DNA from: Candidatus Omnitrophota bacterium
Lineage (GTDB): Bacteria; Hinthialibacterota; Hinthialibacteria; Hinthialibacterales; JAKPRU01
Direction: 5' to 3'
Assembly: GCA_029570205.1 (NCBI GenBank)
Contig: JAKQSI010000093.1
Span: 62,001-126,000 of the forward strand
DNA length: 64,000 nt
Shown here: piece by piece, positions 28,560 to 44,227 of the stretch
How positions within the stretch are numbered: position 1 is the stretch's first letter
How the letters are laid out: each line of letters opens with the position of its first letter
The notes under the pieces: generated by a model
The model's input: the letters and a program-made list of their open reading frames with translations, nothing else
What the model was told of the DNA's origin: nothing
Databases searched by the model: none
Made by a program: the position numbers and the translations under genes

Positions 28560-31568
<3,009 letters not shown>

Positions 31569-31581
31569 CCCCCGTAAGCCG

Positions 31582-31602
31582 CGTAGTATTGTCCCACCAC
31601 CT
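31582..31602 (+). promoter_or_regulatory. 23S processing stem, right arm
   Basis: CGTAGTATTGTCCCACCACC is the complement of 28524-28544 and lies just beyond the 3' end of the 23S gene. Confidence 0.8.
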
Positions 31603-31671
31603 GGACAACAACTTTGTTTTCGTCAGTCACCCGACCGGCTGACTGTTCAGGGTGATTCATAGAAATCAGAT

Positions 31672-31790
31672 TTTGGGTGGCCATAGCGGCGGGGATCCAC
31701 CTGTTCCCATCTCGAACACAGAAGTTAAGCCCGCTCGCGCCGATGGTACTGCCGGGGACACCCGGTGGGAGAGTAGGTCGTCGCCCAAAT
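31672..31790 (+). rRNA. 5S ribosomal RNA
   Basis: TTTGGGTGGCCATAGCGGCG begins the molecule and its end GTCGTCGCCCAAAT closes helix I (UUUGGGUG with CGCCCAAA). Internal blocks CCCATCTCGAACACAGAAGT and CGGTGGGAGAGTAGG are standard 5S motifs. It is about 119 bases, 104 bases after the 23S end, and followed by a strong terminator. Confidence 0.95.
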
Positions 31791-32663: not shown

Positions 32664-33070
32664 ATTCCGCGCAGGACCCTTCCCCCACCATCCTTTCAAT
32701 CCGGATTTTCCTGAATCCCCCTCTCTTTGTTCTCCTTGCAGTCGATTTTTGATTCCGTTTGATTTCATCCGGTTCGAATGAAGAGCGGTAGATTCTGTTT
32801 GGGGATCTGATGTTATGTCCGGCAGATTTGTCGGATCGCAATTCTTTTCCTCCGACTTCAGTTTGATGTGCGGGAAACCGATAACTTGAGTCAGTTGGTT
32901 GTCTGTGGCGGCCGGTAAGGAGGAGCCTGGTCCGGTCGGCTGTTTTATTCTGCTACTCGGGTTGTTTACGCCTGCCTGATTTTTCCGTTTCGCGAACGGT
33001 GAATCCCTTCGAGGGCTTTGAGAGGAACATTATGCACGGTTGGATCGTCGATCCGGCCGGGGGAGGTATC
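32664..33070. other. Intergenic region, no gene seen
   Basis: About 400 bases without a convincing coding sequence; a short inverted repeat CCGTT/AACGG sits at 32985-32999. The ribosome site for the next gene is at 33061-33066. Confidence 0.4.
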
Positions 33071-33499
33071 ATGTTTGGAAATTGCGATGTATGTCAGAAA
33101 TACGGTCCGGTGGATAAGTACGGTTGCTGCAAGTCCTGCGCGAAGACCGAGGAAGACCTCATTGCGGTTGCGCGTGAGTTCATCCGCCGCCACAGCAAGG
33201 TGCAAATCACCGATCTGGCGGAGGCGCTGGGGATCGATCCGGCTCGGGTCTTCAAGTGGTTGCAGCAGGGGCGCCTCCGTACTACCGCAGCAAGGCAGAT
33301 TTGTCCCGATTGCGGTCAGCCTGTTCTGAACGGTCTTTTCTGCGGATGTACTCGGTACGTGGAAACCATCACCCCCAATGGAGCCGATGCGAAATCCCAT
33401 GGAACTCCCCGGCGTGTTCAAGCCAAGTGGGAAGAATACTGGTTTACCAAGTCCAGGATTCATCGCCACCGCCATCGTCGAATCTGGCTGAGTACTTAG
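33071..33499 (+). CDS. YvyF-like flagellar-operon zinc-ribbon protein
   Basis: A 142-residue protein with a Cys pair set at the N-terminus (CDVCQKYGPVDKYGCCKSC), a middle helical domain resembling a helix-turn-helix (VQITDLAEALGIDPARVFKW), and a second zinc knuckle (CPDCGQPVLNGLFCGC). This zinc ribbon-HTH-zinc ribbon order matches the YvyF/TIGR03826 flagellar operon protein. ATG 33071 has GGGAGG four bases upstream. The C-terminal 35 residues are basic and look unlike the family (IHRHRHRRIWLST). The role of this family is poorly known; in Bacillus it is encoded with flgM. Confidence 0.55.
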   Translation: MFGNCDVCQKYGPVDKYGCCKSCAKTEEDLIAVAREFIRRHSKVQITDLAEALGIDPARVFKWLQQGRLRTTAARQICPDCGQPVLNGLFCGCTRYVETITPNGADAKSHGTPRRVQAKWEEYWFTKSRIHRHRHRRIWLST

Positions 33500-33704: not shown

Positions 33705-34817
33705 CTAGGGATTTGAGGGGATTGTCTGGGTGTTCCCGCGCAAGATATTCAAGATTTGCTCTCCGGAGCGTGCCAACAGGCTGAGCAACGCATCGGTGAC
33801 TTCCGTGTCGTAGGCGGTTCCCCGGTTGTCCTTGAAGTAGGTGATGATCTGCGGTGCGGGCCAGGCCGGTTTATAGCAACGCTCCGTCGCCAGCGCATCA
33901 CACACCTCCGCCACAATCAGCATCCGGCTGGGCAACGCGATTTCATCCCCTTTCAGGCCTTGTGGATATCCTTTCCCGTCCACTCGCTCATGATGTTCAT
34001 GCACGAACACGGAGACTTCCGCGAGGGACCCGATGGGAGCCAGGATCTTGTAGCCGGTCTCCGAATGAGTCTTCATAATCTCATATTCTTCCGGGGTGAG
34101 TTTATCGGGTTTGAGCAGAATGCTGTCCGGAATCCCGATCTTTCCGATATCGTGAAGCAGCCCTGCGATCCTCAGAGATTCGTTATATTCCTTGGGCAGG
34201 GAGAGCTCGCGGGCAAGAGTCAAGACGAAGTTGGAAACCCGTGCACCATGCCCCTTCGTATATAGATCTCTGGCCTCCAAAGCCAGAGAAAGCGATTCAA
34301 TGGAATGAATCAGGAATCCCTTGATTTCCCTGGTTTGTTCCTCCACCTTCTGTTCCAGATAGTTGCGATACTCAATGTTTTCCAGAACCAGTCGTCGTCG
34401 TTCCAGGGCACGGGAGGCGATCAGTTCCACAAGGTCGAGGTTGAAGGGTTTGGTGAGAAAATCATAAGCCCCGAGGCGTACGGCCGAGACCGCATCCTCC
34501 AGAGTCGGCTGGCCGGTCATGAGAATAACCGGAATGTTCTGGTCCAAGACGATGACTTCTCTGAGGATATCGATGCCGGTCAGGCCGGGCATATAGATGT
34601 CCGTGTATACAAGATCGAAGTCGAACTGCCTGCTCTGAATGCGTTCGAGCGCTCGACGCCCGTCGGTGAATGGCTCCGTTTCGTATCCCAGCATTCGGAG
34701 GAATTCGCCCAGCATTGCGCAGATGTCGACCTCGTCGTCGATTATGGCGATGCGCGGCTTGAGATCGGGTCTGTTCGGTCGGTATAAAGTGGTTTGGATT
34801 CCTGGCGGCATACGCAT
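33705..34817 (-). CDS. RpfG-like response regulator: receiver plus HD-GYP
   Basis: A two-domain response regulator, likely a cyclic-di-GMP phosphodiesterase switched by phosphorylation. The receiver (about residues 22-140) has the acidic pair IIDDE, phosphorylation Asp in LVYTDIYMPG, MTGQ and TKPF. A coiled-coil linker leads to the HD-GYP domain: GHGARVSNFVLTLA, LLHDIGKIGIPDSILLKP, HHERVDGKGYPQGLKGDEI (GKGYP variant of GSGYP) and AEVCDALATERCYK. Metal ligands appear intact. Divergently transcribed from the next response regulator gene with about 125 bases between starts, suggesting a shared control region. Start could be ATG 34817, ATG 34811 or TTG 34829. Confidence 0.9.
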   Translation of the reverse strand: MRMPPGIQTTLYRPNRPDLKPRIAIIDDEVDICAMLGEFLRMLGYETEPFTDGRRALERIQSRQFDFDLVYTDIYMPGLTGIDILREVIVLDQNIPVILMTGQPTLEDAVSAVRLGAYDFLTKPFNLDLVELIASRALERRRLVLENIEYRNYLEQKVEEQTREIKGFLIHSIESLSLALEARDLYTKGHGARVSNFVLTLARELSLPKEYNESLRIAGLLHDIGKIGIPDSILLKPDKLTPEEYEIMKTHSETGYKILAPIGSLAEVSVFVHEHHERVDGKGYPQGLKGDEIALPSRMLIVAEVCDALATERCYKPAWPAPQIITYFKDNRGTAYDTEVTDALLSLLARSGEQILNILRGNTQTIPSNP

Positions 34818-34943
34818 ATATCTGAACAAAGAACTTAGCGTAGGTATTTTACTCTATGAGGTCGGTTGAATCGAGGGTGTGCCTGTCCTCGAGTGATTTG
34901 GGTGATAGACTGATAGAAATGCGACAGGCGGACTGAGTGGAAA

Positions 34944-36188
34944 ATGGAACAGGACCGATTGATTCTCCTTGTTGACGATAATTCACAGTACCGATCTGCG
35001 GTGGCTCGAAATCTCACAGTGGAGGGGTACCGTGTTTTGGAGGCGGAGGACAGCACGCAAGCTCTGGAGCAGCTTCAGCGTGAATCTCCCGTTGCGATTA
35101 TTACTGACTTGGATATGCGTACCCATGATGAAGGACTGCAATTGATCCGGCAGGTCAAGCGAAATTACCCGCATCTTCCGGTCGTGATGGTGTCGGCTGT
35201 TGGGGGATTTGATGAAGGCGCGCTGGCTCGTCAGTATGGGGCCATGTACGTTGTCAGCAAATCCAGGATCGACGCGGAAATCGAGAGGTTATACGAGCGG
35301 TTGGATCGGATTTGCCGGTATCGTGATGAGATCGATGCACTTCGGGATCTCGTGGAAACCGCGGACAGTGGAACGGGTATGGATCGTCGGCAGCTATACG
35401 AACGGCTGGATCGTCTGTTGCAAGAGCAGGACCTGGATGCCGGGATGAAAGGGGTGGTGTTCGAGTTACGGGACCGGTTGGAGGTTTCCGAGCGCAGGGA
35501 GAGTCGTTCGGGGCGCCCGACGGTGGATCTGCAGGGCGCGCTGAACGAATTGCGCACGTTCCTGCCGGAATTGGATTCCCTCCACCCGGAAACTCAGACG
35601 ATGCTGGCCATCGGGTATCATTTGGAGCAATCGGAACCGAGCGCCGGCTTGTCTGTCTCAAGGAATGCCTGTTTCTCCTATTCCTTTGCGGTTGAGAATG
35701 AGGTGAAGAACCGTGTCGGCAGGCGCATCACTCGATTCTTGACGGGTGGGGAGGCCGAGAAGATTCTTCGGGAACTGTATGATCCCAAAATCGATAACCT
35801 GGACATCTTTTTCAACCAATACATTGTGCGAACGATTCAGGCAAACGACCTGGATGTGAATTCGGACATCACGCGCCAAGTTCTTGAACGGATGCTTCGT
35901 CACCGGCAGAAGTACAAGCCGGATGGCTTGAAGGCGCTGGGGGTCATGTTTTTCTGCTTTGGTCGAACATTCAGTTTTCAGGGAGCCTGCGGAACCGTGA
36001 CCGTGAAGAATCCCATGGGACTGAAAGGACTGGAGGACGATCAGACGATGAGGCTTTCAGGATTCCTGATTCGCCTGCAACATTTGAGAAATCCGTTTGT
36101 TCATCCGGAGTTCAGTGATCGGGAGAAAACGGTTTGCATCCGGGATACAGCTATCGAGTGTCTGCGGTTGGCATCCTATCTGGTATGA
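34944..36188 (+). CDS. Response regulator with HEPN-like C-terminal domain
   Basis: Residues 1-120 are a CheY-like receiver: VDDN at 10-13, phosphorylation Asp D55 in ITDLDM, S in VMVSAV, K in VVSKSR. A coiled-coil region (about 108-185) follows. The last 230 residues match no domain I know; near the end, 382-RNPFVHPEF-390, preceded by LIRLQHL, is an R-x4-H motif in a helix as found in HEPN domains (RNases or RNA/nucleotide-binding modules). The middle contains KNRVGRRITRFL and a long stretch SRNACFSYSFAVENEVKNR. The ATG is 127 bases from the divergent HD-GYP regulator. Output is unknown, and the HEPN link is inference from the motif only. Confidence 0.7.
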   Translation: MEQDRLILLVDDNSQYRSAVARNLTVEGYRVLEAEDSTQALEQLQRESPVAIITDLDMRTHDEGLQLIRQVKRNYPHLPVVMVSAVGGFDEGALARQYGAMYVVSKSRIDAEIERLYERLDRICRYRDEIDALRDLVETADSGTGMDRRQLYERLDRLLQEQDLDAGMKGVVFELRDRLEVSERRESRSGRPTVDLQGALNELRTFLPELDSLHPETQTMLAIGYHLEQSEPSAGLSVSRNACFSYSFAVENEVKNRVGRRITRFLTGGEAEKILRELYDPKIDNLDIFFNQYIVRTIQANDLDVNSDITRQVLERMLRHRQKYKPDGLKALGVMFFCFGRTFSFQGACGTVTVKNPMGLKGLEDDQTMRLSGFLIRLQHLRNPFVHPEFSDREKTVCIRDTAIECLRLASYLV

Positions 36189-36263: not shown

Positions 36264-36401
36264 TGGTGTCCGGTTGCATTGAAAATCCCATGAAACGTCA
36301 ATGTCAGGGGCAATTCCCGGTGGAGGAGACAGAAACGGGATAGGCGCGGAATTGCACAGTTGGAACTTCGACGATATCCCGGCATCTCACTCGACGCTCT
36401 T

Positions 36402-37118
36402 ATGAAGAGTTTGGCATTTAACCTTGCTTTTAAAGTCCACCGCAATGAAATCCCATTCGCCGAGGGGATCCTGAAAGCGAATGCGGAGGGGGCGGCGGAG
36501 GATTTTCTGGACGCGCTGAATTCGCTTGCCGGCGAAGTACGCTATGATCCGGCGCAGCTTCCCGACCTTTTGGCACAGGCACAGGGTGCGGCCGGCGGAT
36601 CAGCCGGGCAGCCGCTGCAAGAGCTGAAGCCGAGTGTGGATCTCTCTGCTCTATTCGAAGAACTGAACAATCTCCACAGGAAGAAACGGGATTTGGAAGA
36701 GGGAATCGCGACTCTCAAGACGATGGCGGCCCAGCGCTATCCCATGATTGTTCCGGGGGTCAATTCCGTTTTGCTTCTCATCACCTTTGGGGTATTTGTC
36801 ATGATTCTTTTTGCCATGCAGCAGACAATCCTGGGACTGATTTTTATTCTGGTCGGGTTGGTCGGAGCCGGACTGTTCTATATAAAGGATATGAAAGTGT
36901 TGCAGAAACAACGTGCGGAAGCCGAGAGACGTCGGGCGAAACACGAGGCGGAAATTGCAAGATTGCAGGCCCTGCTGGAGGAAAATGAGAAACTGACGGC
37001 AACCAAAGAGGCCGAACTGAAGGCTGCCCAGCAAGCCATCGTTACCGCGCGCCAGGATGTATTCCGGTCGGTAGGCGGATCCCCCGAAGCGCCACGATTG
37101 GATATCAGAAATGAATGA
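36402..37118 (+). CDS. Membrane-anchored coiled-coil protein, unrecognised
   Basis: I do not recognise the family. Residues 1-75 form a helical N-terminal part (KVHRNEIPFAEGILKANAEG). A coiled coil around 85-110 precedes two adjacent membrane helices at about 120-165 (VNSVLLLITFGVFVMILFAM, then LGLIFILVGLVGAGLFYI), and a second long charged coiled coil follows (QRAEAERRRAKHEAEIARLQ). The C-terminal tail is short. This resembles a bitopic signal or scaffold protein. ATG 36402 is the first good start; a TTG at 36360 extends it. Overlaps the next small gene by eight bases, so co-translated. Confidence 0.55.
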   Translation: MKSLAFNLAFKVHRNEIPFAEGILKANAEGAAEDFLDALNSLAGEVRYDPAQLPDLLAQAQGAAGGSAGQPLQELKPSVDLSALFEELNNLHRKKRDLEEGIATLKTMAAQRYPMIVPGVNSVLLLITFGVFVMILFAMQQTILGLIFILVGLVGAGLFYIKDMKVLQKQRAEAERRRAKHEAEIARLQALLEENEKLTATKEAELKAAQQAIVTARQDVFRSVGGSPEAPRLDIRNE

Positions 37119-37417: not shown

Positions 37418-37759
37418 ATGATCAAGATCAATCACCGAAAACAAAATGATGTCGTGATTCTGGATCTTTCCGGCACGATTGATTTGGAGGGAATTGAGAC
37501 CGTGAAAGAAGCGGTCAGCCGGGAACGTCAAGCCGGCTGCAAGAAGATGATTTTGGGCATGAAAGGTGTGGACAGCATTATTTCCAGTGTGATTCAGAGA
37601 TTTCAGGCCACGGTGACGGCATTTTGGGTGCCCGGCGGTCGGATTGTTCTGGTGAATCTTTCGGTTGGGAACAGGCGGATTCTCGAGAAGCAGGCATTCT
37701 TCAAAATGCTTAACACGGCAGACACCGAGGAAGAGGCATTGGAGTTGTTGGCGAAATAG
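37418..37759 (+). CDS. STAS-domain protein (anti-sigma-factor antagonist-like)
   Basis: A 113-residue STAS domain: VVILDLSGTIDLEGIETVKE, then MKGVDSIISSVIQRFQATV, where SpoIIAA-type proteins have the phosphorylated Ser in DSSGLG, and VLVNLSVGNRRILEK. The switch motif reads DSIISS, so a serine is present at or near the phosphorylation site, but the Gly that follows it in active antagonists is missing. AAGGAG/AAAGGA precede the ATG. No RsbW-like kinase or sigma factor is adjacent. It could act in a partner-switch or in chemotaxis signalling with the neighbouring che genes (inference). Confidence 0.78.
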   Translation: MIKINHRKQNDVVILDLSGTIDLEGIETVKEAVSRERQAGCKKMILGMKGVDSIISSVIQRFQATVTAFWVPGGRIVLVNLSVGNRRILEKQAFFKMLNTADTEEEALELLAK

Positions 37760-37781: not shown

Positions 37782-38879
37782 TCAATCGGATCCGACAAAG
37801 CCGTTTCGTACCAGGTTCACAATGGCTTTCGGGATGTCTTGCAAGGGAAGTACCTGTTCGGCTCCTCCCATTTCAATGGCCTCTTTGGGCATTCCAAACA
37901 CGACACAGGTTTGTTCGTTCTGGGCGATGGTGTGTGATCCGGTTTCGCGCATCTGGGTCAAGCCACGCGCGCCATCCGCTCCCATGCCGGTCATAATCAC
38001 CCCAAGCGCATTCGGTCCGATTTCCCGAGCCAGGGAGTGAAACAGGACGTCTACCGAAGGGCGATGACGCATGACCGGTTCGGATTGACTTAACACGGCG
38101 ATATACCCCGTCGCGGTGGACTGTATGAGCATGTGCGAATGCCCGGGGGCAATCAGCACCTTTCCCGGTTCCAGCGGTTCGTGATCCTCCGCCTCCTTGA
38201 CGGTCAGTTCGCAGAGTCCGTTGAGTCGGTTGGCGAATGCACGGGTGAATCCCTCCGGCATGTGTTGCACGACCATGATGGGCGGCAACTCCTTTGGAAG
38301 GGCTGCCAGGACATCTTTGAGCGCCTCGGTTCCCCCGGTTGATGCGCCCATGCCGATGACCAGACCTCCCGAGCGAGTTCTTGGGATCGATCCTTTGGGC
38401 AGGGGAGGAATGGTGATCCTCGGAGGGGGTGTGAACGAGGCGGGTCTGGTCAGGAGACGTCGACGGATTTTGGCTCCCGCTACGGCCTTGATTTTCTCGA
38501 TCAGGGTAGCAGCAATCGTGGGCATTCCCTCTGTGACCGAAGCGCTGGGTTTTGTCACGAAATCGACAGCCCCCAATTCCAGGGCTTTGATTGTTGCCAC
38601 GGCGCCGCGTTCGGTTACCCCGCTGACCATGATTACCGGCACGGGATATACCGAAATCAATTCCGGCAGCAATTCCAACCCGCCTTTCTGCGGCATTTCG
38701 ACGTCCAGGGTCACCACATCCGGTTTGAGTAATTTCACTTTCCGAAGCGCAAAGGTTCCGTCGGAAGCGGTCCCGACCACCTCAATCATCGGATCCTGTT
38801 GCAACAGATCGGAGAGAATCTTCCGGACCAATGCAGAATCATCCACTACCAACACCCGGATTTTGTCTTTTGTTTCCAT
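37782..38879 (-). CDS. cheB: Chemotaxis response regulator/methylesterase CheB
   Basis: CheB removes methyl groups from (and deamidates) chemoreceptors when phosphorylated by CheA. Receiver: VDDSALVRKIL and phosphorylation Asp in VVTLDVEMPQ, MVSG, TKPS. Catalytic domain: GASTGGTEAL (Ser), VVQHMPEGFT (His), and MTGMGADGA (Asp). Full length 365. It is the last gene of the minus-strand che operon and converges on the STAS gene with 22 bases between stops. Confidence 0.95.
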   Translation of the reverse strand: METKDKIRVLVVDDSALVRKILSDLLQQDPMIEVVGTASDGTFALRKVKLLKPDVVTLDVEMPQKGGLELLPELISVYPVPVIMVSGVTERGAVATIKALELGAVDFVTKPSASVTEGMPTIAATLIEKIKAVAGAKIRRRLLTRPASFTPPPRITIPPLPKGSIPRTRSGGLVIGMGASTGGTEALKDVLAALPKELPPIMVVQHMPEGFTRAFANRLNGLCELTVKEAEDHEPLEPGKVLIAPGHSHMLIQSTATGYIAVLSQSEPVMRHRPSVDVLFHSLAREIGPNALGVIMTGMGADGARGLTQMRETGSHTIAQNEQTCVVFGMPKEAIEMGGAEQVLPLQDIPKAIVNLVRNGFVGSD

Positions 38880-38933
38880 TCTTCCCGTTTCAGTCCATTC
38901 TTTCCTGTTTTCGTATTCGTTGAGAGATATCTC

Positions 38934-39290
38934 TTATTTCAGCGCGCGGTTCACCGCTTCCAGAACCGTTTCCGTTGTGAAGGGTTTGACAACGAATTCG
39001 GAGACTCCCAGGGTGATCGCTTTTTTCAAGATACTTTCCTGGCCGAGCGCCGTAACCATGATGATCTTTGCAGATGGATCCTCTTCCAGGATTTCCCGGG
39101 CGGCCTCGATTCCGTCCTTGACAGGCATCGTGATATCCAGGGTCACCAATTCCGGACGATTCCGGCGATATAAACTCACTGCCTTTTCACCGTTCTCCGC
39201 CTCTAAAACTTCGTGCTTCTCTTTTTTCAACATGTTGCGCAAGACCATTCGCATGAAATACGAGTCGTCTACTACGAGTATTCTGGCCAT
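38934..39290 (-). CDS. cheY: Chemotaxis response regulator CheY
   Basis: A single-domain receiver of 118 residues: ILVVDDSYFMRMVLRNML, phosphorylation Asp in LVTLDITMPVKDG, and switch residues MVTALGQ and VVKPF. When phosphorylated by CheA, CheY binds the flagellar switch (FliM/FliN). It lies between cheD and cheB; the gene upstream ends 82 bases away. Confidence 0.9.
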   Translation of the reverse strand: MARILVVDDSYFMRMVLRNMLKKEKHEVLEAENGEKAVSLYRRNRPELVTLDITMPVKDGIEAAREILEEDPSAKIIMVTALGQESILKKAITLGVSEFVVKPFTTETVLEAVNRALK

Positions 39291-39372
39291 ATCAATCCCG
39301 ATTCTTCCCTGTTGCCTTTTATCCGGATGTCCGACACCCGATCCGACCGTCCATCGTGAGAGACCGTGAACC

Positions 39373-39861
39373 TCATAGAAATTCGCGCTTGTTCACCTCC
39401 CGAACCAGGACTTTGCCGCTGTCGGTTTGGAAGATTACTTTCCGCCCACGGTCGCCTCCGACATCCTCTGCGACAATCCGGATGCCGTTCGCGTGCAGGA
39501 ACTCTCTGGCCACAGCGACATTCCGTTCGTTGATCATTGCGAAAGAAATCTGTGAGAGCATGTGTGCGCCGCCGAAAATCTTGGCCGATGTTGTCCGAGT
39601 TTCCATGCCGAGTTGTTTCATCCGAACGAGCAATTCCGGCAGCGCTGTCTTTCCGTATTTCCCGCTGTGCTTCGAGTCCACTTGCGCGGACGGAGGAGGA
39701 GCGGGAAGCACATGATGGTTCATACCGGATATTTTGTTCTTGGAGTCATACAAACACACGCTAACGCAGGAACCGAGCACCGTCGATACCTGTTCTGCTT
39801 TTGTGGTGACATAAATCTCTCCAATGCTGAGATTTTTTTGCGGAAGATTGTTTGTTGTCAT
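39373..39861 (-). CDS. cheD: Chemoreceptor glutamine deamidase CheD
   Basis: CheD deamidates receptor glutamines and, with CheC, forms a feedback loop on CheY-P. The active-site region reads VLGSCVSVCLYD with the catalytic Cys, followed by GMNHHVLPAP with the catalytic His, then KIFGGAHML and a C-terminal RDSG-like VIFQTDSGKVLVREV. Length 162 is typical. It lies 14 bases downstream of cheC on the same strand. Confidence 0.93.
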   Translation of the reverse strand: MTTNNLPQKNLSIGEIYVTTKAEQVSTVLGSCVSVCLYDSKNKISGMNHHVLPAPPPSAQVDSKHSGKYGKTALPELLVRMKQLGMETRTTSAKIFGGAHMLSQISFAMINERNVAVAREFLHANGIRIVAEDVGGDRGRKVIFQTDSGKVLVREVNKREFL

Positions 39862-39875
39862 CAGGTCTCTCGATA

Positions 39876-40466
39876 TTACCTCAACCGTGCCGCAAGGTTC
39901 TCCACAAGATCGGGAGAGGGCAGAAAGAGAAAATGCATTCCGATTCCCCGTTCCTTTTCCGCCATATTCGTGTCCACCAGAATGGCCTTGTCGGCGATCA
40001 GGCTCTGTTCGGCGATCAGTCCTTCCAGAACCGCCGCGAGCATGTCATACACAAAGAACGGTTCTGTGGGACGCAGTTCCAGACCGACACGGTCTGCAAG
40101 GACGTTAAGAAAACAGCTGCCCACAACATTTGCCAGTTCGCCAAGAGCCGAGGGATCGGATAAGTTGATCACACCATCCTCGAACGGAACGCTTCCCCAG
40201 AGTATCTCATTCAGTTTTCTCGCATTCTCTTCATACATGAGGAAAACCATATAGCCGCTGTTGTCCCCGGTGATCCTGAGAAGGATCATCGCCATGGGAG
40301 TATCCGGCGGATAGAGAGATTCACACAGATTCTCGAAGGGGATTTGCTCGATGCGATTGACCCGGATACTCAGCGGACGACCGACCATCATTTCCATGGA
40401 CCGTCCCGCGAGCTCCGCGCTTTCCGAAAAAACCGACTTGATCCGTTCGAGTACTGTTTCGTCCAT
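39876..40466 (-). CDS. cheC: CheY-phosphate phosphatase CheC
   Basis: CheC dephosphorylates CheY-P and is activated by CheD. The first phosphatase helix is present as SALGELANVVGSCFLNVLAD, with the Glu-x2-Asn pair (ELAN); the second site, if kept, lies near the N-terminal ESAELAGRSMEMM (E-x2-G rather than E-x2-N), so one centre may be inactive. At 196 residues the length fits. The ATG overlaps the cheA stop by one base, indicating coupling. Confidence 0.85.
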   Translation of the reverse strand: MDETVLERIKSVFSESAELAGRSMEMMVGRPLSIRVNRIEQIPFENLCESLYPPDTPMAMILLRITGDNSGYMVFLMYEENARKLNEILWGSVPFEDGVINLSDPSALGELANVVGSCFLNVLADRVGLELRPTEPFFVYDMLAAVLEGLIAEQSLIADKAILVDTNMAEKERGIGMHFLFLPSPDLVENLAARLR

Positions 40467-42559
40467 TATATTCCCAACGTCTCCTGAATCAGAGCGGCTA
40501 CATCGAGGATCAGGATCACACTTCCGTCCCCCAGGATCGATGCGCCCGCAATGTAGCCGGAATGCTGTTCGTGTGCGCCCAGGGACTTGATGACGATTTC
40601 CTGTTCGTTGACCATCCGGTCCACAACCAGACCGACATGTTGATTCCCGTGTTGCACGACGGCGATATAGATTCTACTATTTGTCTCTCGACGAACGGGA
40701 GTTTCGAGCACACGATCCAATCGCAGGATGGGAACCACCCCTTCCCGCAGGCGGATCACTTCGCCCCTGCCTTCAACCGTAAAGATCTCGTTGCTTGTGA
40801 TCCGAAGCGTCTCCGTGACGTTCGCGATGGGCAAGGCAAACATTTCGGAACCGGCTTCCACCAGCAGAGCCTGGATGATTGCCAGGGTCAGGGGCAGGCG
40901 GATCGTGAAGGCGGTTCCTTTCCCCGGTTCCGTCTCAATATCGATGCTTCCCCCCAGCTCGTCGATGGTCCGTCTGACCACATCCATTCCGACTCCCCGG
41001 CCTGAAATGTCGGAGACCACCTGAGCCGTCGAGAAGCCGGGCTGAAAGATGATCTGAAGTACCTCTCGATCCGGCAGTTGGTTGATGGCTTCCTCTGTGT
41101 ACAGGCCCCGTTCGACCGCTTTCTGTTTGATACGTTTCAGATCCAATCCCTTACCGTCGTCTCGGACGGTGATGGTGATGTTGTTTCCCTCATGGGATGC
41201 AGCCAGAGTCAGTTTGCCCTGGACAGGTTTTCCGGAGGCGATCCGCTCGGCCGGGGACTCAATCCCGTGATCGACCGAATTCCGGATCATGTGCGTCAGG
41301 GGATCCCCGATGACATCGATGATCTTCTTGTCAATTTCCGTTTCTTCACCTTCCAGAACCAGGTCCACCTCCTTTTCGCGTCCGTGAGAGAGATCTCGAA
41401 CAACCCGGTGGAAACGCTGGAAGACCTGGCCGACTGGAACCATCCGGGATTCCATGATGGCTTCCTGCAGCTGGGTGATGATCATTCCCTGCTGGACCAG
41501 GCTGTCGAGCAGGAAGCCTTCCTCCCCGGTGTTGCCCCGGCGGGCGGCCAGCTGTTGACCCAGTTCCATCGCCCTTCCCCGGTTAATAACCAGTTCTCCG
41601 GCGAGATCCAACAGACGGTCCAGTTTTGCGATATCCACACGTACGGTTTGAGTTCGGACCCTGTCTTCCCGTCGCTCAAAGGATGTCGAAGGCGATTTTT
41701 CGGCCTCGGCAGTGGGCGGCTTTACCTGAACCGGGGACACCGATTCTGGCGCTTGTTCCGTGGATTTCTTTTCGGATTCATCCGGCCATTCGAATTGTTC
41801 CGCCTGAGTGATATCCCGCGTAATAACGTTCTGGACCTGTCCCACGGAGCACCCGTTACGAACATCCGACTCGGAGGAATCCGTTGCAAGAATAAAGGAA
41901 AATCCCTTTTCCACCACGGCGTTTTCGTCCTGTTCCACATCCGGTTCACAGACCAGGATGTCTCCCAGGGATCGCATGTTATTGCAGATCAGGAAGGCGC
42001 GGGTTGCGGCCATGGGGATATTGTCTTCGAAAAGCACATCCACTTCGTAGATTCTGTGTCCCGCAAGGCGGTATTCCTCGATTCGGTTTCGTCTCGTCTC
42101 ATCCAACCGGATCCGTGGGACCTTCGCCGTCGGAGTTTCTGCAATCTCCGGCGGTCGGATCGCGGCCACACTGTGCAGGCGTGTGATGAGTTCCGTGCTC
42201 TGCTGTTTAACCCGATTCTTGTGCGCTTCGGATTCCTGATCGCCCAAGTTGGAAAGCATTTCCTTGAGCAAATCGAATGAGTCAAACAGGGTCGTGATGA
42301 CATCGCCGGTGATGGGGGCCTTTTCGTCCCGCATTTTCGCCAGGACATCCTCCATGGTGTGGGTGAATTCGCTGATGTGCATGAATCCCACCATCGCGGA
42401 GGAGGATTTCATGGTATGCGCCGCCCGAAAAATGGCCTGTAACGGTTCCGAGTTCCCCGGATTCTGCTCGAGGGCCAAAAGCGCCTCGTTCATCTGTTCC
42501 AGGTGTTCCTCAGAGTCCTGGTAGAACAGTTCGATGTACTGATTGGGATCGAATTCCAT
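40466..42559 (-). CDS. cheA: Chemotaxis histidine kinase CheA
   Basis: CheA autophosphorylates in response to chemoreceptors and phosphorylates CheY and CheB. Domain order: HPt with the phospho-His in AHTMKSSSAMVGF (about residue 48), a P2 response-regulator binding domain (about 145-235), the dimerisation helices with RVDIAKLDRLLDLAGELVI, the HATPase domain (HMIRNSVDHGIESPAER, DDGKGLDLKRIK, GRGVGMDVV), and a CheW-like C-terminus (VIRLREGVVPILRLD). ATG 42559 has AGAGGTG; a longer frame reaches 42631. Length is 697. Confidence 0.95.
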   Translation of the reverse strand: MEFDPNQYIELFYQDSEEHLEQMNEALLALEQNPGNSEPLQAIFRAAHTMKSSSAMVGFMHISEFTHTMEDVLAKMRDEKAPITGDVITTLFDSFDLLKEMLSNLGDQESEAHKNRVKQQSTELITRLHSVAAIRPPEIAETPTAKVPRIRLDETRRNRIEEYRLAGHRIYEVDVLFEDNIPMAATRAFLICNNMRSLGDILVCEPDVEQDENAVVEKGFSFILATDSSESDVRNGCSVGQVQNVITRDITQAEQFEWPDESEKKSTEQAPESVSPVQVKPPTAEAEKSPSTSFERREDRVRTQTVRVDIAKLDRLLDLAGELVINRGRAMELGQQLAARRGNTGEEGFLLDSLVQQGMIITQLQEAIMESRMVPVGQVFQRFHRVVRDLSHGREKEVDLVLEGEETEIDKKIIDVIGDPLTHMIRNSVDHGIESPAERIASGKPVQGKLTLAASHEGNNITITVRDDGKGLDLKRIKQKAVERGLYTEEAINQLPDREVLQIIFQPGFSTAQVVSDISGRGVGMDVVRRTIDELGGSIDIETEPGKGTAFTIRLPLTLAIIQALLVEAGSEMFALPIANVTETLRITSNEIFTVEGRGEVIRLREGVVPILRLDRVLETPVRRETNSRIYIAVVQHGNQHVGLVVDRMVNEQEIVIKSLGAHEQHSGYIAGASILGDGSVILILDVAALIQETLGI

Positions 42560-42584
42560 TGCGCACCTCTGATTCTCGCGAACA

Positions 42585-43427
42585 TCATTTTCCGATCGGT
42601 TTCCGGTATACCGATGCCATGATGAACTCAAAACGCGTAGCCATCCCGTGAAGCGTCTCCGAATGACCTAAAAAGAGATACCCGCCCGGGCGGAGAACCT
42701 CGTAATACTTCAACATCAGTTCTTCCTGCGTTCCCCGGTCGAAATAAATAATCACGTTTCGGCAGAAAACAATATCGAACCCTCTTAATTGCCGTTGAAA
42801 GGGATCATTGAGATTGATCTTGGCGAATTCGATCAGGCAGTGCAATTCAGGCTTGACTTTCACTCTTCCGGTTCCCTTCAGGAAATACTTACGCAGCAGG
42901 TCCATGGGGATACCGTTTACTTTGTCTTCGGTGTAAATGCCCTCGCGTGCCGTTCGCAGGGCGCTGTCGCTGATATCGGAGGCCAGAATGGAGACCGGTC
43001 GTCCCGGCGAACGTTGTTGTGCCTCCAGGGCCGAGATGGCGATGGAGTACGGTTCCTCCCCGGTAGAACAGGCGCTGCTCCAGATTTTCACGGGTGTGGA
43101 ACCGGATTTCGGATCCAGAAGATGCGGCCACACCTGCGTGTCGAGGAATTCAAATTGTTTTCCTTCACGAAAGAACTGGGTGGTGTTTGTGGTGATTGCA
43201 TCAACCATCTTCTGCAATTCTTCCCGTCTTCCCTCCTCCGAAGTAACGTATTTGTAGTAATCACTATAGGAATCCATGTTCAGTTCGCGAAGACGCTTGG
43301 CCAGGCGGTTCATAACCAGCATCTTTTTATGAGGGCGAAGGGCGATGCGGCTTTCTTTGTAAATCAAGTCTCGAAATCGCTCGAAATCGAGCTGGGACAT
43401 CTGTTTTTGACTCAGTGTCAGCGCCAA
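42585..43427 (-). CDS. cheR: Chemoreceptor methyltransferase CheR
   Basis: CheR methylates receptor glutamates using SAM. The N-terminal helical domain (FRDLIYKESRIALRPHKKML) is followed by the SAM-binding fold with WSSACSTGEEPYSIA, ILASDISDSAL and FCRNVIIYF, ending LFLGHSETLHGM. Length 280. TTG 43427 has AGAGG eight bases upstream; ATG 43400 is an alternative. It lies between cheW and cheA. Confidence 0.93.
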   Translation of the reverse strand: MALTLSQKQMSQLDFERFRDLIYKESRIALRPHKKMLVMNRLAKRLRELNMDSYSDYYKYVTSEEGRREELQKMVDAITTNTTQFFREGKQFEFLDTQVWPHLLDPKSGSTPVKIWSSACSTGEEPYSIAISALEAQQRSPGRPVSILASDISDSALRTAREGIYTEDKVNGIPMDLLRKYFLKGTGRVKVKPELHCLIEFAKINLNDPFQRQLRGFDIVFCRNVIIYFDRGTQEELMLKYYEVLRPGGYLFLGHSETLHGMATRFEFIMASVYRKPIGK

Positions 43428-43524
43428 CTCTTGGGCCTCTCTTTGTTGGAAAGCGATCTGCCGAGCAGTCGGCGGTTCCTCCCATCCGGTTCCTCTTCAC
43501 GAGTCATGGACAGGGCCGGGTCGT

Positions 43525-43992
43525 TTATAGAGCGGCCAATTCTTCCGAGGACAATATCCTCTCAACATCGAGCAGGATCATCAGTCTGTCTTCGATTCTT
43601 GCCATGCCACGAATGTATTCTGCGGAAATTGAGGCCCCCATTGGAGGCAGCGGGGAGACCTGATCGGAGTCAATCTGGATGACCTCCGAGACTTCATCGA
43701 CGATCAGTCCCATTTCTTTTCCATTGACGTTGACGACAATGATCCGTGTTTTTCGGTCTCGTTCCCCCTTCGGAAGACCGAATCGTGTTCGTAAATCCAT
43801 TACCGGGACCACTTTCCCGCGCAAGTTCAAAACCCCTTCGATAAACGGCGGAGACTTTGGAATTCGGGTCAATGATTCGAATCGGATAATCTCCTGCACT
43901 TTGAGGATATCGATCCCATACTCTTCTTTGTCGAGAATGAAACTGACATACTGCTGGGTGAGGTTTTCGGTGGCGACAGTTTTCGCGGCCAT
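43525..43992 (-). CDS. cheW: Chemotaxis adaptor CheW
   Basis: CheW bridges CheA to chemoreceptors. The CheW-like domain shows QQYVSFILDKEEYGIDILKV, IPKSPPFIEGVLNLRGKVV, DLRTRFGLP and LIVDEVSEVIQI. ATG 43992 gives 155 residues; the frame is open to 44028. It is the first gene of the che operon; no methyl-accepting chemotaxis protein is encoded in the window. Confidence 0.93.
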   Translation of the reverse strand: MAAKTVATENLTQQYVSFILDKEEYGIDILKVQEIIRFESLTRIPKSPPFIEGVLNLRGKVVPVMDLRTRFGLPKGERDRKTRIIVVNVNGKEMGLIVDEVSEVIQIDSDQVSPLPPMGASISAEYIRGMARIEDRLMILLDVERILSSEELAAL

Positions 43993-44227
43993 AGTGCATT
44001 GCCCTTTCCCAACCGCGTAACGAGGCAATGAATTTCATGCTGCCGTTCCTTTGCGGACGGGCGTGTCACGGATGTCTTTCTCTCCAAATCACGTCCTGCG
44101 GTTGTCAAGAATGTCCCGATATTCCTTGCGTTTCAACAGGAAAAGTATACGCCGACGGACGGCGATTCCATAGGACTCGTCCACTGAAAAGTCAAGAGTT
44201 TACCGGCCCACAGGCTTCGACATGGAA

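Follow-up and report, generated by a model that had tools for sequence, protein, structure and literature searches.

What does a response regulator act on if the domain behind its receiver belongs to no recognised family? The usual targets of response regulators are DNA and second messengers, and a few of them (ANTAR) bind RNA. The window, i.e., the whole stretch of 64,000 nucleotides of a Candidatus Omnitrophota bacterium, contains a gene that raises this question. A preliminary description of the window had proposed that its product joins an intact receiver via a linker to an output domain resembling HEPN domains. The features referred to below are as follows.

34944..36188, plus strand: response regulator gene, 414 aa, with receiver, helical linker and HEPN-like output domain (ORF, Pfam receiver match, homologues, dN/dS 0.053)
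34944..35303, plus strand: receiver domain, residues 1-120 (Pfam PF00072, E 1e-18; invariant columns in 43 homologues)
35106-35108, plus strand: codon of the phospho-acceptor D55, within the receiver
35304..35579, plus strand: helical linker, residues 121-212 (AF2 helices; dN/dS 0.14)
35580..36185, plus strand: HEPN-like output domain, residues 213-414 (AF2 model of residues 186-414; sequence-based Pfam, NCBIfam and PDB searches blank)
35694..35708, plus strand: E251-N-E-V-K255, Ex3[KR] motif in the long helix 238-267, the putative equivalent of HEPN helix-2 (alignment, AF2)
35922..35936, plus strand: D327, G328, K330 and A331, DGxKA motif (invariant in 51 sequences)
36087..36104, plus strand: R382-N-P-F-V-H387, Rx4H motif, placed where helix 365-382 ends and in the loop that leads to helix 392-410 (51-sequence alignment, AF2 models)

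The regulator gene and its relatives

The 414-aa ORF was found exactly as described, and with a dN/dS of 0.053 and homologues in all 14 genomes of the phylum it represents a real gene that evolves under purifying selection. In comparison with the congener G001, the linker is the least conserved part of the regulator (dN/dS 0.14), and the value of 0.041 for the output domain indicates strong constraint on this domain. The receiver is intact, as proposed, with a match to Pfam Response_reg (E 1e-18), and all 43 full-length homologues share D11, D12, D55, S84, and K106 without exception. Thus, the phospho-transfer chemistry is intact. The proposed linker between receiver and output is predicted by AF2 to contain helices at residues 109-140, 148-159, and 166-187.

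The bacteria concerned are uncultured and poorly known, and relatives of the window genome are labelled Hinthialibacteria (OLB16) or, in case of older records, Omnitrophota. All 14 genomes of the Hinthialibacterota contain the domain with one gene each, and in G006 and G010 the regulator gene is interrupted by contig ends or a frameshift. In case of the OLB16 genome (L069 / G010:C66:1461-2115), the C-terminus of the regulator lies in another frame and in two pieces, probably due to a frameshift or an assembly error. One copy was observed in 35 out of 40 genomes of the Sumerlaeota, including 20 out of 20 high-quality genomes, and further members occur in one UBP4 genome (L058, probably identical to G317) and in one further lineage (G181). 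All other genomes among the 386 sampled across the domain lack the receiver-fused form. With its single copy number and this distribution, the regulator gene is a vertically kept core gene rather than a mobile toxin.

A different architecture was observed in the class of G267/G395, where a more distantly related form of the domain is located at the C-terminus of HEAT-repeat proteins of approximately 700-1050 aa in 46 out of 58 genomes (including L083, L084, and L088-L107) and carries the motif RNRA[AIV]HEG. HEAT_2 was matched in a paralogue of this HEAT-fused class. The HEAT-fused group is a HEPN-like family that is absent from Pfam. The same class also contains a second, more divergent paralogue group (L165-L174, approximately 885-966 aa) with the motif LQ[ED]xRNxAAHR, in which the Ex3 position is occupied by D or by E. 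L175/G288 was matched weakly and carries RNPAAH. A match to a 509-aa ORF of G239, which covers part of the domain without the motif, was taken as a chance hit.

Conserved residues and predicted fold of the output domain

The C-terminal portion of approximately 220 residues is indeed of unfamiliar sequence, without significant match among Pfam, NCBIfam and PDB sequences, and a search of the PDB sequences with three profiles of the domain likewise gave nothing significant. The sequence RNPFVH near the C-terminus, on which the HEPN proposal was founded, begins at residue 382. Conservation of R382 and H387 had been set beforehand as a check, and both residues are invariant in 51 diverse relatives that span at least four lineages, including relatives at 16-22% identity. 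The underlying domain alignment, to which receiver-fused members contribute 37 sequences and HEAT-fused members 14, has only 9 invariant columns out of 229, namely E251, D327, G328, K330, A331, Q379, R382, N383, and H387.

According to the HEPN review (Anantharaman et al. 2013, PMC3710099), the HEPN signature consists of Rx4-6H with a polar residue (N, D, or H) after the arginine, and a second conserved acidic residue, typically within Ex3[KR], is located in helix-2. In the 51 sequences the residue following R382 is always N, which corresponds to the polar residue of the signature. K255 is invariant in the receiver-fused members and replaced by R in the HEAT-fused members, and in one paralogue group D takes the place of E at the Ex3 position. 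R382 and H387 had been singled out before any homologue was seen, and the HEPN literature then predicted N383 and E251 as further residues. With columns drawn uniformly, as a simple model, the chance that R382 and H387 both fall among the 9 out of 229 columns is approximately 0.0014, and for all four HEPN-specific residues it is approximately 1e-6.

The output domain would most likely act as a metal-independent endoribonuclease. It is rather unlikely that a HEPN-derived output has ceased to cut RNA and uses its conserved pocket for recognition, in phospho-dependent binding of RNA or a ligand or in a protein interaction. The superfamily includes non-catalytic binding members according to PMC3710099, the DGxKA motif is an extra invariant motif and a possible ligand or partner site, and a single-copy core gene is atypical of HEPN toxins. 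Nevertheless, R-N-x3-H and Ex3[KR] are kept without exception, whereas inactive versions are expected to lose the conserved charged residues, as outlined there (PMC3710099).

The AF2 model of residues 186-414, computed from 45 sequences, has a pLDDT of 92.9 and a pTM of 0.89. It contains helices at residues 215-229 and 238-267, the latter carrying the Ex3K motif, followed by an insert that comprises several helices as well as a beta-hairpin. After this insert, helix 365-382 ends at R382, H387 is situated in a loop, and helix 392-410 follows. In the model, the order of the helices and the placement of the motifs along the chain fully agree with the HEPN definition given in PMC3710099. Foldseek searches against PDB and BFVD gave no match below E 0.9, and the best Z obtained with VIA-align 2 was 5.7, to unrelated helical proteins. 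No HEPN chain occurs among the Foldseek and VIA-align matches of the model, which represent helical background only, and this outcome neither supports nor excludes a relationship to HEPN.

A Pfam scan of the output domain of the receiver-fused members remained without significant match. For the HEAT-fused relatives, single-sequence Pfam searches gave weak matches to DUF4145 (E 0.0023 and 0.033) and Abi_2 (E 0.028 and 0.2), both treated as HEPN families in PMC3710099, and to HEPN_RiboL-PSP (E 0.26), a HEPN family by name. The weak matches of these relatives include families not listed here as well, and those to HEPN families cover the stretch of helix and motif. In hhalign comparisons with DUF4145 and Abi_2, the response-regulator profiles, which are small, gave no significant result (probability 0.1-0.4%), and the HEAT-fused profiles, which are small as well, reached up to 26% over the motif only, with reversed decoys near 0.

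Taken together, R-N-x3-H, Ex3K, and the helix order support the proposed HEPN-like output, but Foldseek and VIA-align returned no HEPN match and the profile matches are weak and confined to the level of the motif. Due to the missing HEPN confirmation by Foldseek and profile-profile searches, a relationship of the domain to HEPN is quite probable rather than proven. The fact that no HEPN was matched by structure, or significantly by profile, as well as the large insert with its beta-hairpin between the helices, would suit a novel all-helical output unrelated to HEPN, in which R382 and H387 are part of a different active site or of a structural network and resemble HEPN residues by convergence. 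Four HEPN-specific residues among 9 invariant columns of 229, a helix order and motif placement that fit HEPN, and the weak matches of the HEAT-fused relatives to HEPN families make this explanation unlikely.

Genomic context and histidine kinase partner

At most Sumerlaeota loci, a membrane histidine kinase gene is located immediately upstream of the regulator gene, often with an overlap of 4 nt. The same arrangement, with the kinase gene directly upstream, was observed in UBP4 (L058) and in the lineage of G181 (L082). The partner kinase has TM segments, a HATPase_c domain and an invariant GHDxTN box. In 18 Sumerlaeota loci, genes encoding an LptE-like protein and LolA are situated upstream of the kinase gene, and the conserved operon LolA - LptE-like - histidine kinase - regulator occurs in L036-L050, extending approximately 2-3 kb upstream of the regulator. 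In L042, RuvX follows the regulator. In case of the Hinthialibacterota, the kinase gene is unlinked to the regulator gene, and an orthologue is present in 14 out of 14 genomes. The window genome carries its kinase gene on another contig (G000:C64:42376-44343) with the H-box GHDLTN. At this locus of the window genome (L160:4877-8178, minus strand), the kinase gene overlaps the gene of a multi-membrane protein by 4 nt and has NAD-epimerase genes nearby, which is again an envelope-type setting.

Kinase orthologues (E below 1e-90) and the receiver-fused regulator occur in the same 19 out of 386 genomes, with a nominal p of 1e-32 that is overstated because these genomes are related. Both genes are single-copy and near-universal in the Hinthialibacterota and Sumerlaeota, and both are present in 20 out of 20 high-quality genomes of the latter. 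Since four lineages agree without exception and the Sumerlaeota genomes add 20 out of 20, the cognate pairing is the best-supported part of the analysis. On the basis of gene order and occurrence, the prediction that the kinase is the cognate partner of the regulator is thus strongly supported. The operon structure of this kinase and its co-occurrence likewise argue for the phosphorylation control of the output which the preliminary description had considered.

The neighbours reported beside the regulator gene are present, namely a divergent HD-GYP response regulator gene (33705-34829, minus strand), an ORF for a coiled-coil membrane protein (36360-37118) and a gene for a STAS protein (37418-37759). 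A role of these genes as its conserved signalling locus is not supported, as the conserved partners lie elsewhere, and in the loci examined HD-GYP, coiled-coil and STAS genes are kept beside the regulator gene only within the genus. In another family of the phylum, a gene encoding a receiver-less HD-GYP protein (L035:8277-9284, minus strand) is divergently adjacent to the regulator gene. This protein is not an orthologue of the HD-GYP response regulator of the window, and its position is regarded as coincidental or as a loose theme. The window contains a chemotaxis cluster (37782-44028, minus strand) downstream of the STAS gene, with CheB, CheY, CheD, CheX/C-like, CheA, CheR, and CheW-like ORFs as judged from the sequence. 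A YvyF-like flagellar-region ORF (32999-33499) falls below the cut-off of its family, and 23S and 5S rRNA genes (28561-31789, plus strand) are located approximately 2 kb from the HD-GYP gene.

Although the regulator gene adjoins HD-GYP, STAS and chemotaxis genes in the window and is located near fliF/fliI/fliJ in order f2, it is highly improbable that it encodes a phosphorylation-independent or defence/toxin HEPN which is tied to such neighbours and whose receiver is a decoy or a nucleotide switch, since the phospho-transfer residues are all invariant, every complete genome contains the co-occurring kinase, PADLOC matches are restricted to the receiver region with none to a defence system in the output domain, and the gene is single-copy with a vertical distribution.

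Proposed mechanism and comparison with known systems

The locus is best read as part of an envelope-linked two-component system whose new output is HEPN-like and probably an RNase. With a probability of roughly 0.55, we regard the regulator as a two-component response regulator with a new HEPN-superfamily-like output that is most likely a metal-independent endoribonuclease. The membrane-anchored histidine kinase would sense the state of the envelope, a signal suggested by LolA and LptE being operon partners of the kinase, and would phosphorylate D55. The receiver would presumably dimerise, and passed on through the helical linker this dimerisation would pair two output domains. HEPN active sites usually form at dimer interfaces, so that such a pairing would assemble or expose R382, N383, and H387 together with E251 and K255. 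The assembled site could then switch on the cutting of particular RNAs. Catalysis by a HEPN dimer would suit receiver-driven dimerisation well.

Only tentatively would we extend this reading to a kinase that directly switches a HEPN endoribonuclease, is single-copy core together with it in at least two phyla and is tied to outer-membrane biogenesis, RNA decay replacing the control of transcription. If the output is an RNase, it would provide a direct route from signal to RNA decay, by which an outside signal acts on RNA. None of the libraries used contains the domain, and due to the identified kinase partner the idea is testable with purified kinase and regulator.

Unlike the known HEPN RNases (DUF4145, Abi_2, RiboL-PSP; Anantharaman et al. 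2013, PMC3710099), the domain described here is not recognised by any HEPN model, it contains the large insert with a beta-hairpin and the invariant DGxKA motif, and it is part of a single-copy core gene product fused to a receiver rather than of a toxin, a CRISPR effector or an abortive-infection protein. A receiver-HEPN fusion does not appear in the sections of that review drawn on here, and no earlier receiver-HEPN protein was found in open-access full texts; a prior mention in central response-regulator reviews is possible. The HEAT-repeat proteins of the class of G267/G395 share the homologous C-terminal domain with the same nine invariant residues, but at approximately 700-1050 aa they differ from the regulator by the lack of a receiver. 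Similar to the HD-GYP, GGDEF, and CheB response regulators, the regulator would be an enzyme fused to a receiver and controlled by phosphorylation, except that its output is new and its predicted substrate is RNA instead of a second messenger or a methyl group. The ANTAR regulators AmiR, EutV, and NasT are receiver-controlled as well and act on RNA and not on DNA (PMC3369931). In their case the output consists of a short helix bundle that binds RNA as an antiterminator, whereas the regulator described here carries an output of approximately 200 residues with a predicted RNase site.
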